This document shows positions 31,270-41,463 of a stretch of 64,000 nt of DNA, piece by piece. Made by a program: the position numbers and the translations under genes. A model generated the notes under the pieces. It did not search any database and was not told the DNA's origin. It saw nothing but the letters and a program-made list of their open reading frames with translations. Source of the DNA: Chlamydoabsidia padenii (lineage: Eukaryota; Mucoromycota; Mucoromycetes; Mucorales; Cunninghamellaceae); the NCBI GenBank assembly GCA_025330725.1, contig JAIWND010000055.1, forward strand, positions 56,023 through 120,022, in the 5' to 3' direction. Every line of letters begins with the position of its first letter. Position 1 is the stretch's first letter.

Positions 31270-33189
31270 GGTATTGTTTGTTGAAATAGTAAAAGAAAAA
31301 GGGAAAGAGAGAAAGAGAGAGAACCGAGAGACCAAAGGTTTTCTTTTTTGGAGAAGCGGGGTTTGAACATTTTGGGATCAACCACTCCCTTGTTTTTCAG
31401 CTGATAACGCCCCAAGTGTGACAAACACTACATAGTCCAAAATTCGAAAGAACTGGGTCACTGACAGATGTTTCCCTTCGTTCTCATATGCAAGAAGCTT
31501 GATATTTTACTTTAAAAAACAAAAAACTTTTTTTTATATAAAAAACCCCATCCCTCCTCACCGTTTATCTACTCTATCCGCCAACCATTTTCCCACTAAT
31601 CGGACTTTCAATTTGACAATGTGAAGGGGAAAAAAGACGATTCTGTGAAAGAAGAAGAGGAAGAAATGGTCTGTGCAATGTCACCCATTGTATTACTCTC
31701 TCTCTTTGAATAGTGAATAATCATCATCCGATTGTCCTCCGAGATGGGAATATGTACTAAAGTTCAATCATGTATGACACCTTATCGCACCCGTATTCCC
31801 CGAAGTCAAAAAGGACCTCCATGCACCCCAATTCAAAATTGCCTTGTTTTGATCAATAATAATAATAATAAAACAGCCTAGATCCCCACAAAAGAGAGAG
31901 AGACATTCCCACACATATATATTATGATTGATTTTGCAGTACTGTTTATTATATACTGTAATTTATATTTGGGCCTACCATCAACAACATATGTCAAATA
32001 AACAACAATAATAACATGACATGCAGTGACCTAAAAAAGTATACTAAGATAAGGTCTATACTACATCTATCTATAAAATTGTTATATCTCGCAAGTGATC
32101 CAGTCCTTGTTGTTGATTCTTGTCGTTTCCTTTGTCCTTATCGACCTATTGTTAAAAGAAAATAGGATCATCATTAGTACTTCCGACCCTCACCGATGTT
32201 TTTATCAGACACTTTACCTGCAGAAGTAAGATAAACAACATGAGATAACATCAGGAGCTTGTCGTAAAAAAGCATCATACAGTCGCCTAATACTGGATCC
32301 AGTATCCCACCTTCTGATCCGTCGTGCTTTTCACCAATGTAACTACTATTATCAATAAAAAAAAATACAATCCTTCATCAATGTCGTAGTCCTGCATTTC
32401 CTTGGCGTATTTACCTGTTTTCCTTGTACTAACATTGATAGGACAGATAGAGTAAGAGGAGAGTATCAGTGATATGTTTTGCTCGTTCTCAATTCCACAC
32501 CTTTTAGAATAGCAGAGAGGAGTTGCTCATTAAACAAGATCCATGAGCACTAATACAAGTCAGGGTCAAGTCGAAACTAGACAAAAAAGATGGTCAAAAT
32601 TAGTCGGATATACAGAGTAGATTATTCAACTTATCATGTGTATAGTCTGTCAGATGGGTGTTATTTTTACACACCATGTTGTTAAAATACAGCTTGAGCT
32701 ACGAATGGGTTTTTGTTTAAAAAGTGAAAGAGAAGGAGGGTCGCTCTCTACTTTGAAAAAGCCATTAAAGCGGGATTTGAATTCCGTAAGTTCAGGAGGC
32801 ATGAAACAATCAAGACCCTGAATTCCCTTGTCATGATCAATCAAATGCAAGTACCAAACTTGCTGAGTGATTCTTAATGGAGACGCGGGTCGATTGGAAA
32901 ATGTGATCGCCCGACAAGGCTCATAAAGGAAAAATCTGACATGAATTATTATCATTGTCATCCGCATACCATATACAAGTATACATAAATCCACTTTTTT
33001 TTTTATCTTTTGTAGATAAATGAGACAAAGGCAAGCGGGGATTGAATTTGGTTCCTTGCATGAATGGTGGGAGTGTAGACAATGGCTGTTATACATAGAC
33101 AATAGTAAAGAATGTTTTATTAGGTAAAAAAAAAAAGTGTGTAGTGGATAAAGTAGTATAGTAAAGTAGTATTGTATTAAAGGTAAGAT
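31270..33189. other. Intergenic region of about 1.9 kb, possible decayed gene or spliced non-coding transcript on the minus strand
   Basis: Minus-strand splice-like signals occur at about 32150-32480: donors GTAAAG and GTAAAT, and acceptors CAATAG and TAGTAG. An AATAAA on the minus strand lies near 31949. The putative exons do not give one open frame. A minus open frame at 32650-33102 contains GIQGLDCFMPPELTEFKSRF, which looks coding but has no start or neighbours in frame. A GCGGGATTTGAA copy lies at 32770-32781. No gene is claimed. Confidence 0.4.
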
Positions 33190-39255: not shown

Positions 39256-41463
39256 CTAGTATTCGTCTTCGTTTTCGATTTCAGAGTCACCAAGAGAGTC
39301 AGAGCCAACTTCTTCGTAATCCTTTTCGAGAGCAGCCAAATCTTCACGAGCTTCAGAAAATTCACCTTCTTCCATACCTTCACCAACATACCAGTGGACA
39401 AAGGCACGCTTGGCGTACATCAAGTCGAATTTGTGGTCAAGACGGTTCCAGGCTTCAGCGATAGCAGTGGTGTTGGACAACAAACAACTGTAATAAGATA
39501 ATGGTTAGTAATGATCCATATATGCACAACATACAAGTACTTACCACTAGAGACAAACATTAAAGCAGAAGGAGGAAGAGAGATAAAGTTAGTAAAATGT
39601 ACCTTGCATGTAAACATAAATAAAGCAAAAATTATTTGGATAGTTTCAACTTACACTATAAATCAAAAGGGAGAGAAATAAAGGGTTAGTAAAGATGTCA
39701 AAGAATATAAAGGAGTAACTTACGCTAATGATTCGAAGAGAATGGTCCAGCAGAGGGTAATAAATAGATAGGAAGGATTATGTTAGTAATTGTTCAAAGT
39801 ACTCTGTACACATAAAAGGAGACAGATTTACCTCTTTGGACCTTGGCGACATCACCACCGGGGACTACGCTTGGAGCTTGACCGTTGATGGCAACCTAAT
39901 AAGCAAATAAAAAAGAAGAAGAGTGTAAGAGGATACATTATTGTATGCTACTACGCATTACCTTGAAACCAGTAGGACACCTATCAAGTATATAGAAAGA
40001 AACAAGTTAGTTATCTGACCCTGTTCCCCCCCCCTTTTTTTTTCCTTTTTGTTTTGTAAAAGATAAACTTACCAGTCGACAAATTGAATGGTACGCTTGG
40101 TCTTGATAGCAGAGATAGCAGAGTTGGTATCATTGGGCACGACATCACCACGGTACAACATACAACAAGCCATGTATTTGCCATGACGAGGATCACACTT
40201 GACCATTTGATTGTTGGGTTCAAAGCAAGAGTTGGTGATTTCAGCCACGGACATTTGTTCATGGTAAGCCTTGGCAGCAGAGATGATAGGAGCATAAGCC
40301 ACCAAGGGGAAGTGAATACGAGGATAAGGCACCAAGTTAGTTTGGAATTCGTTCAAATCAGCATTGAGAGAACCATCGAAACGGAGAGAAGCAGTGATGG
40401 AAGACACGACTTGAGCAATCAATCGGTTGAGGTTGGAGTAAGTAGGACGTTCAATATCCAAGTTGCGGCGACAGATATCGTAGATGGCTTCATTGTCGAC
40501 CATGAAGGAGACATCAGAGTGTTCCAAAGTGGTGTGAGTGGTCAAGACAGAGTTGTAAGGTTCAACGACGGAAGTAGAGACTTGAGGAGCAGGGTACACA
40601 GAGAATTCCAACTTGCTCTTTTTGCCGTAATCCACAGAGAGACGTTCCATCAAGAGTGAGCCAAAACCTGACCCGGTACCCCCACCAAATGAGTGGAACA
40701 TCAAAAAACCTTGAAGACCACTACAGTTATCAGCCAATTTGCGTACACGGTCCAAGACACTGTCCACCATTTCCTTTCCCACAGTGTAATGACCACGAGC
40801 ATAGTTGTTGGCAGCATCTTCTTTACCAGAGATCAATTGTTCTAGTATAATATTAAAAGGTAAAAAGATCATATTAATATAAAGTGCTTAACGTCAAATG
40901 CTTTCTTTTTCTTACCAGGGTGGAACAATTGACGATAAGTACCGGAACGGACTTCGTCAATCACAGAGGGTTCCAAATCCACCATCACTGTACGAGGGAC
41001 ATATTTGCCATTGCCAGTTTCAGAGAAGAAGGTTTCAAAACTATAGAATAAAAGAGGAGTATATTAATGTACCATCACCATTAAGGACTCCTGCAGATAC
41101 ACTGTAATGTACAGGTAAACATACATAAAAGGAGTCATGTCAAGGGGAGAGGGGTAAAAGATGATGATAATAATAATGATGATAAAGTTGGAATTACTTA
41201 CGAGTGATCAGCAACAGAGGTACCTTCAGGTAATTTACCATCAGCTTGAATACCATGTTCATGACAATACTATATATAAATAACACTTGTTAAAAAAGAT
41301 GTTTTTTATTATTTTTTCAAAATGTCTGACTTACGAGTTCCCAACAGGCGTTACCAATTTGAACACCAGCTTGACCTATTGTTCATAATAGAGAGTGAGT
41401 ATTGATGATATAAAACATATTACTAGTTTACTTACCAACGTGGACGGAAATGATTTCTCTCAT
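39256..41463 (-). CDS. Alpha-tubulin, with three tandem microexons of 1, 1 and 2 nt
   Basis: Microtubule subunit. The spliced protein is 449 residues and ends in an acidic EENEDEY-type tail (SEIENEDEY) with terminal Tyr. [20 protein letters not shown] opens the protein and GGGTGSG is the tubulin signature. Exons: 41463-41436, 41375-41335, 41269-41202, 41040-40916, 40841-40073, 39980-39962, 39895-39832, then 39724 (1 nt), 39655 (1 nt), 39546-39545 (2 nt), and 39487-39256. Together they total 1350 nt. Without exactly one (mod 3) extra base between 39832 and 39487 the frame breaks. Using all three gives [19 protein letters not shown], which keeps the length of the conserved KVQRAVCMLSNTT segment. 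Each of the four introns there has a GTAAR donor, a TACTAAC branch sequence, and an acceptor at the first AG downstream. Gene identity is certain; the microexons are a strong inference. Confidence 0.96.
39488..39831 (-). other. Tandem microexon cluster inside alpha-tubulin (four introns, three exons of 1, 1 and 2 nt)
   Basis: Introns on the minus strand: A 39831-39725 (GTAAAT...TTAG), B 39723-39656 (GTAAGT...ATAG), C 39654-39547 (GTAAGT...CTAG) and D 39544-39488 (GTAAGT...ACAG). The exonic bases between them are C (39724), T (39655) and TG (39546-39545). Every intron contains TACTAAC, and no AG occurs between that sequence and the acceptor used. The joined bases complete Ala and Cys codons. 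Confidence 0.8.

Follow-up and report, generated by a model that had tools for sequence, protein, structure and literature searches.

Predicted exons of one, one and two nucleotides in series in an alpha-tubulin gene of the fungus Chlamydoabsidia padenii

Exons of a single nucleotide have been described in the plant genes APC11 (Sci Rep 2015, PMC4674806) and VPS55 (Nat Commun 2022, PMC8831610), the latter with the donor behind the lone base conserved as GTRAGT, and in the fungal gene CYP621A of Fusarium (Int J Mol Sci 2026, PMC12940212). Micro-exons may also be neighbors: a rice gene has two adjacent ones of 5 and 12 nt (PMC8831610), and the micro-exon genes (MEGs) of parasitic flatworms carry consecutive micro-exons in runs, their lengths divisible by three and skipping allowed (PMC7653826). 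An isolated coding base that its authors attribute to further intron insertion is found in placozoan mitochondrial cox1, as a 1-bp exon (PMC5436844). Recursive splicing, finally, takes place at ratchet points in Drosophila (PMC8605326) and at RS-exons in human genes (PMC6224609), where acceptor and donor are nearly juxtaposed and removal is stepwise.

The gene considered below lies in a window of 64,000 nt (the whole stretch of DNA that was analysed) on contig C51 of a 34.2-Mb genome in 95 contigs; its paralogs are likewise named by contig (C14, C15, C29). Like APC11 and VPS55, it has a base between two canonical nuclear introns that is required for frame, but those genes have one 1-nt exon each, whereas the C51 gene is fungal and has 1+1+2 nt in series over four introns. 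CYP621A, with its single 1-nt exon, resembles it in being fungal and inferred from reading frame and an intronless relative; the CYP621A exon is conserved across orthologs. The plant exons are backed by RT-PCR or RNA-seq and that of CYP621A by SRA reads, whereas the exons of C51 are predicted from the sequence. Ratchet points amount to exons of zero nt in long introns and leave nothing behind; in C51 the introns are short and one to two coding bases are kept at each step. The run of micro-exons recalls the MEGs, but the lengths of 1, 1 and 2 nt are not divisible by three, and any skip shifts the frame. The cox1 introns are self-splicing group I introns of a mitochondrial genome, whereas those of C51 are spliceosomal. 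A preliminary description of this DNA had set it against one reported 1-nt exon, in Arabidopsis; the tally is out of date, as VPS55 and CYP621A must be added (PMC8831610, PMC12940212). Among the open-licence PMC titles and abstract openings listed, we found no report of 1-nt exons in tandem, which is not proof of absence.

The micro-exon cluster in alpha-tubulin

The alpha-tubulin gene occupies 39256..41463 on the minus strand. In the spliced model it has 11 exons (28, 41, 68, 125, 769, 19, 64, 1, 1, 2 and 232 nt) and 10 introns, with a CDS of 1350 nt that encodes 449 aa and contains no internal stops. The product carries the Pfam domains Tubulin and Tubulin_C, and its best matches among solved structures are alpha-tubulins (the 60 listed of 143 matched sequences).

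The unusual part of the gene, all of it on the same strand, begins at the end of exon 7 (39832..39895, 64 nt), which closes with AAAGAG in phase 1. Intron 7, here intron A (39725..39831, 107 nt, GTAAAT...ATTAG), is followed by exon 8, a single C at 39724 that forms the second base of an Ala codon. Intron 8, or B (39656..39723, 68 nt, GTAAGT...CTAAC...TATAG), separates it from exon 9, a single T at 39655 that forms the third base of the same codon, and intron 9, or C (39547..39654, 108 nt, GTAAGT...CTAAC...TCTAG), in turn leads to exon 10, the TG at 39545..39546 that supplies bases 1 and 2 of a Cys codon. Intron 10, or D (39488..39544, 57 nt, GTAAGT...CTAAC...TACAG), precedes exon 11 (39256..39487, 232 nt), which reads T TGT TTG TTG TCC and on to the stop. 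The single bases at 39724 and 39655 thus each lie between the canonical AG acceptor of one intron and the canonical GT donor of the next, and the joined CTTG of exons 8-10 gives the 1350-nt CDS and the motif KVQRACCLLSNTT. Positions of the two 1-nt exons, the 2-nt exon and the four introns, together with the donors GTAAAT, GTAAGT, GTAAGT and GTAAGT, reproduce exactly what the preliminary description had put forward. Very probably, four ordinary U2-type introns split Ala372-Cys373 at G^C^T^TG^T, leaving constitutive exons of 1, 1 and 2 nt that would be joined by sequential intron definition and would have arisen by intron gain.

Reading frame alone is a weak guide to such a structure. With the outer boundaries fixed, GT-AG introns of at least 40 nt and at most 7 exonic nt allow 42 chains at C51, 8 of them in frame and exactly one with a four-base insert (C+T+TG); the other inserts of 1, 4 or 7 nt were rejected on account of stops, of deleted or extra residues, or of weak donors. 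In the C15 paralog a second 4-nt solution, TT+TG, was discarded as it yields VCC rather than ACC and uses a poor donor. Dinucleotide shuffles, counted as successes if they offer a 4-nt insert coding Ala-Val or Ala-Cys, succeed in 0 of 20000 cases for C51 and 1 of 20000 for C15 when GTAAGT donors and YAG acceptors are demanded. When any GT and AG will do, they succeed in 58 and 63 of 4000, respectively, so that frame arithmetic by itself is unconvincing.

The decisive support for the structure, in our comparison of sequences, is the identical partition of the C15 paralog, one of four alpha-tubulin genes in this genome (C51, C15, C14 and C29). C15 has four introns at the same places and preserves the 1/1/2 layout with micro-exons C, G and TG, the first and last identical to those of C51 and the middle one changing GCT to the synonymous GCG. 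The AG-N-GTAAGT junctions persist between the two genes although the intron bodies cannot be aligned: of 300 shuffles, 106, 73, 210 and 217 align as well or better for introns A, B, C and D. As a separate observation, the last 14 bases of intron A (39725-39738) are alike at 12 of 14 positions between C51 and C15 (CTTCGAATCATTAG, CTTTGAATGATTAG) while the intron bodies are unlike, and this end is a possible conserved acceptor element.

The remaining paralogs provide the uninterrupted text. C14, which has two introns in total, is intronless here and reads AAC CGT GCT TGT TGT TTA TTG, or Asn-Arg-Ala-Cys-Cys-Leu-Leu (RACCLL); its RACC is the very join that CTTG predicts, including a Cys where the five PDB alignments examined have Val. 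C29 has one phase-1 intron of 76 nt, matching intron A in codon position and phase, after which CT GTC TGT gives Ala-Val-Cys. Set against intronless C14, the isolated bases are needed both for frame and for the conserved motif, which only full inclusion yields at full length. Loss of any single micro-exon is computed to shift the frame and bring a stop after 382 or 394 residues, and retention of any one intron a stop after 372-383.

Two of the in-frame C51 chains insert one base, C only or T only, and delete one residue, and it could be asked whether a functional tubulin, one residue shorter, is made with just one micro-exon. Both products are in frame, and for the C-only product the Pfam Tubulin_C score falls by just 3.9 bits (171.9 to 168.0). 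Such a reading leaves unexplained, however, why C15 should preserve each of the three micro-exon junctions despite diverged intron bodies; C14 and C29, moreover, code for the full-length motif, which is ungapped in the 5 PDB alignments examined out of 143 matched sequences. We regard it as highly improbable.

Over the 70 codons that follow the cluster, 24 synonymous codon changes and 1 nonsynonymous one separate C51 from C15, with 2/0/23 changes at codon positions 1/2/3. This excess indicates translation in the frame restored by the micro-exons, and hence purifying selection on exon 11 in the spliced frame; the codon pattern cannot by itself tell a 4-base from a 1-base join. It also bears on the suggestion that the C51 copy is decaying or silent, with the other alpha-tubulin genes doing the work and the intron cluster as debris. 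Four alpha-tubulin genes are indeed present, and C14 and C29 are simpler in structure. Against decay stand a C51 model free of stops and frameshifts, the 24:1 ratio downstream, and NG86 values of dN 0.073 and dS 0.743 for the whole C51-C15 CDS; against debris stands the retention of the cluster in C15. A silent C51 would be most surprising on this evidence. The preliminary description had named a second intact gene beside a silent copy as what would overturn it: other intact genes exist (C14, C29), but C51 looks functional, to judge from selection. Its central claim, that CTTG is joined to give KVQRACCLLSNTT from 1/1/2-nt exons in tandem, is strongly supported by chain enumeration, shuffles, paralogs and codon differences taken together. 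Sequence comparison establishes the structure, its conservation in C15 and its need for the reading frame, and predicts that the exons of 1, 1 and 2 nt would be included in the mRNA.

Splice signals and the order of intron removal

A donor matrix covering positions +1 to +8, trained on the 16 other introns of the four alpha-tubulin genes, gives 9.8-11.9 bits for each of donors B, C and D, whether in C51 or in C15. Donor A, at 6.2 bits in C51 and 3.6 in C15, is the weakest of each gene by this intron-only matrix and lies inside the range of the training donors themselves (leave-one-out mean 8.6, range 3.1-11.6). With exon contacts included, the match to CAG|GTAAGT is 6, 6 and 7 of 9 for donors B, C and D in C51 and 6, 7 and 7 in C15; donor A then reaches 7 of 9 in C51, where it ties with D and surpasses B and C, and 6 of 9 in C15, level with B. 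An order of splicing cannot be read clearly from donor strength. GTAAGT stands at all six donors that follow a micro-exon in C51 and C15, versus 9 of 16 elsewhere, a mild excess that may offset the absent exon contacts.

Acceptor-side signals are less uniform. In C51, introns A and C have low-scoring acceptors, at 1.3 and -0.1 bits, where the 16 other introns have a mean of 5.2 and a minimum of -1.1. CTAAC occurs in all four C51 cluster introns, starting 21-62 nt before the intron end, and the preliminary rule that the next AG serves as acceptor holds for all four (the AG read by eye), but it fails in C15. There, a weak TTGAT located 78 nt before the end is all that the first cluster intron offers, and the fourth has no branch-like motif; in the third, the first AG falls within a few bases of CTAAC, presumably too close for use.

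The preliminary description had also inferred that exon definition cannot work on 1 nt; this is reasonable, and the same argument has been made for APC11 (PMC4674806). With exon definition inapplicable, each intron would have to be paired end to end and recognised singly, by intron definition. Neighboring introns would share a splice-site footprint, the acceptor and the next donor being 1-2 nt apart, so that adjacent introns would not be assembled together and removal would be sequential. At least two rounds would be required, for example with non-adjacent introns removed together. Every order of removal would give the identical mRNA, and the sequence does not fix the order. We favor this sequential intron definition as the mechanism.

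The preliminary description had gone further, in proposing that removal of intron A rebuilds the next donor, and so on along the cluster in a stepwise 5'-to-3' recursion. Short introns that are spliced co-transcriptionally would tend to be removed 5' to 3', the end product is compatible with that order, and the standing of donor A in C51 with its exon contacts, noted above, fits it as well. Yet donors B-D are complete before any splicing occurs. Upstream splicing does not alter their U1 match, in C51 as in C15, so that there is nothing to rebuild and any order is chemically possible; the weakness of donor A by the intron-only matrix in both genes argues against an obligatory start at A. In Drosophila, furthermore, intronic recursive sites are described as requiring a cryptic RS-exon (PMC8605326). 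Nor do the junctions have the zero-length AG|GT form of a ratchet point, in which no base is left, since 1, 1 and 2 bases stay behind and the frame requires them. Donor rebuilding is thus unsupported, and we think obligate recursion rather unlikely. A zero-length AG|GT junction of ratchet-like form, CATGCAAG|GTACATTTTACTAAC, does occur within intron 9 at 39602-39603 on the minus strand; it is absent from the C15 intron.

Micro-exons elsewhere in the genome

The pattern CTAAC-TAG-N-GTAAGT is found at four places in the genome: the window, a site on C25 that is an ordinary end of an exon, and, on C12, both copies of a duplicated gene for a Vcx1-like Ca2+/H+ exchanger. These copies, at C12:1450978 (L035) and C12:1848845 (L036), are ~398 kb apart and near-identical in this stretch, with diverged flanks. 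In them three introns would divide an Asn codon as A|A|T, so that ATT GGG | A | A | T GCC GCT GAA gives Ile-Gly-Asn-Ala-Ala-Glu (GNAAE); the introns at L035 are 75, 99 and 72 nt, and L036 has the same two 1-nt exons. The predicted product aligns without gaps at GNAAEHVT to structure 4K1C (Vacuolar calcium ion transporter), which we take to be yeast Vcx1. Chains that use a 5-nt exon instead would add a Ser. The paralogs on C16 and C56 each have one intron here, a base further upstream, at GG^A AAC and GG^T AAT (by eye).

Three further genes appear to have one such exon each. A glutamine synthetase gene at C67:1101497-1101538 (L111, minus strand) would have a lone G as exon, flanked by introns of 78 and 72 nt, CAG|G|GA giving QGPYYC and thus GPQGPYYC, a motif intact in 3FKY; this is the sole in-frame chain found within 6 exonic bases. 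A ClpB/Hsp104-like gene at C34:138862 (L116, plus strand) would have a lone T as exon, with introns of 74 and 61 nt on either side, GAAG|T|G giving EVL with the Val codon split as G|T|G, and its 30-residue fragment aligns without gaps to 1JBK. At C25:129884 (L109, plus strand) an MFS-transporter-like gene, named by eye, has a probable 2-nt exon GG (SSWGVMQD), for which the alternative 2-nt exon is TT; no Pfam family matched this fragment at 0.001. Together with the two tubulin genes, the sequence thus points to exons of 1-2 nt at seven loci in five families, the MFS-like locus being probable, and to tandem 1-nt exons at four loci in two families.

The recurrence claim rests on the protein evidence at each locus, since pattern counts exceed the control in just one search. 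Nine genome-wide searches gave, as matches over those of a read-backwards control, 2/0, 4/25, 52/138, 5/44, 18/36, 14/18, 11/69, 7/34 and 29/150, and thus no enrichment, the matches lying below the control in 8 of 9. For the 52-match pattern, context was read at 51 matches, comprising 30 loci (29 distinct, with the C12 copies counted once), 20 more and the window copy; the remaining match, on C91, shares its matched string with one on C53. Three of the 51 were accepted (C51 and the two C12 copies), and the 48 others were judged ordinary by base composition and by eye, without translating each. Elsewhere contexts were read for 2 of 5, 2 of 18, 3 of 14 (a fourth is C15), 4 of 11, 2 of 7 and 3 of 29 matches, one more of the 29 having been read under the 5-match pattern. 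As loci were picked by the intron-like look of the matched string, the census is partial and biased to CTAAC, CTGAC and TAAC branch motifs and GTAAG donors. Candidates on C2, C20, C33, C58 (twice), C7 and C3, as well as C45:611185, C56:762275 and C45:491820, were rejected by eye.

Several other places caught our attention in passing. By eye, a membrane-protein-like gene at C12:747660 (minus strand, L120) has a possible 3-nt exon CTG, the skipping of which stays in frame, and another gene at C6:443486 (minus strand, L114) an apparent 8-nt exon, CTATTAGT. Two successive TAG-AA-GTAAGT junctions at C29:13045-13320 (L124) are possibly tandem 2-nt exons. Within the window itself, a match to the pattern CTAAC...TAG-A-GTAAGA lies at 32429-32457 (C51:88451-88479, plus strand).

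Origin of the cluster and its significance

In trees of the four alpha-tubulin genes, C14 and C15 are sisters, with support of 100 (nucleotide) and 98 (protein), and C51 groups with C29 with support of 75 when one PDB alpha-tubulin serves as outgroup. The cluster would on this topology be at least as old as the C51/C15 split (NG86 dS 0.74), unless an old gene conversion moved it; a recent conversion is rejected by the unalignable intron bodies and the high synonymous divergence. If the cluster does predate the split, C14 would in that case have lost it, and the intronless state of C14 may reflect RT-mediated intron loss, the explanation given for intronless APC11 copies (PMC8831610). In C29, three of the introns were either lost or never present, and the tree does not decide between the two. 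By eye, the C15 and C14 loci (L029, L031) have a similar upstream gene end, which suggests that they stem from a segmental or whole-genome duplication.

We suggest that the cluster sits on an older single intron, the one kept in C29, and would have grown as more introns were gained next to it. Where paralogs could be read, in two families, the cluster coincides with a single older intron site or lies one base away from it, which favors gain beside an existing intron. The same coincidence can be claimed for a different history, proposed for CYP621A by Nelson and Syed (PMC12940212), in which exon-edge bases are lost and later rescued through cryptic AG-N-GT exons within a single long intron: here, too, the split region falls where C29 has its one intron, and one base from that of the Vcx1-like paralogs. 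For the tubulin cluster, however, this would require several coordinated rescues. The intron sequence of the cluster, moreover, adds up to 340 nt, divided among four introns of 57-108 nt, as compared with one 76-nt intron in C29, and the 16 other introns of the four alpha-tubulin genes span 60-161 nt. We consider base loss and rescue rather improbable as the origin and prefer intron gain. Tandem duplication was also entertained as the source of the introns; among 36 pairs of nine introns the six lowest uncorrected shuffle fractions, 0.01-0.025, are unconvincing.

It is conceivable, and we offer this tentatively as somewhat short of an even prospect, that repeated intron gain in this fungal lineage, each time only a few bases away from existing introns and in unrelated housekeeping genes (alpha-tubulin, Vcx1-like exchanger, glutamine synthetase, ClpB-like chaperone), has produced serial 1-2-nt exons that are joined by obligate sequential intron definition without any exon recognition. 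Such clusters would act as a strict fidelity gate, because losing any one micro-exon destroys the frame.

Two consecutive 1-base exons, each touching both an acceptor and a donor, would set the extreme for a minimal exon. The cluster adds to the warning, voiced for plants and for Fusarium (PMC8831610, PMC12940212), that annotation overlooks the smallest exons. It makes testable the removal of introns without exon recognition and the order in which this takes place, and a single genome offers both the natural substrates (alpha-tubulin, Vcx1-like, glutamine synthetase and ClpB-like genes) and the controls (intronless C14 and one-intron C29). Finally, these clusters bear on how introns are gained, since in the two families whose paralogs were read they coincide with older intron sites or lie one base away.
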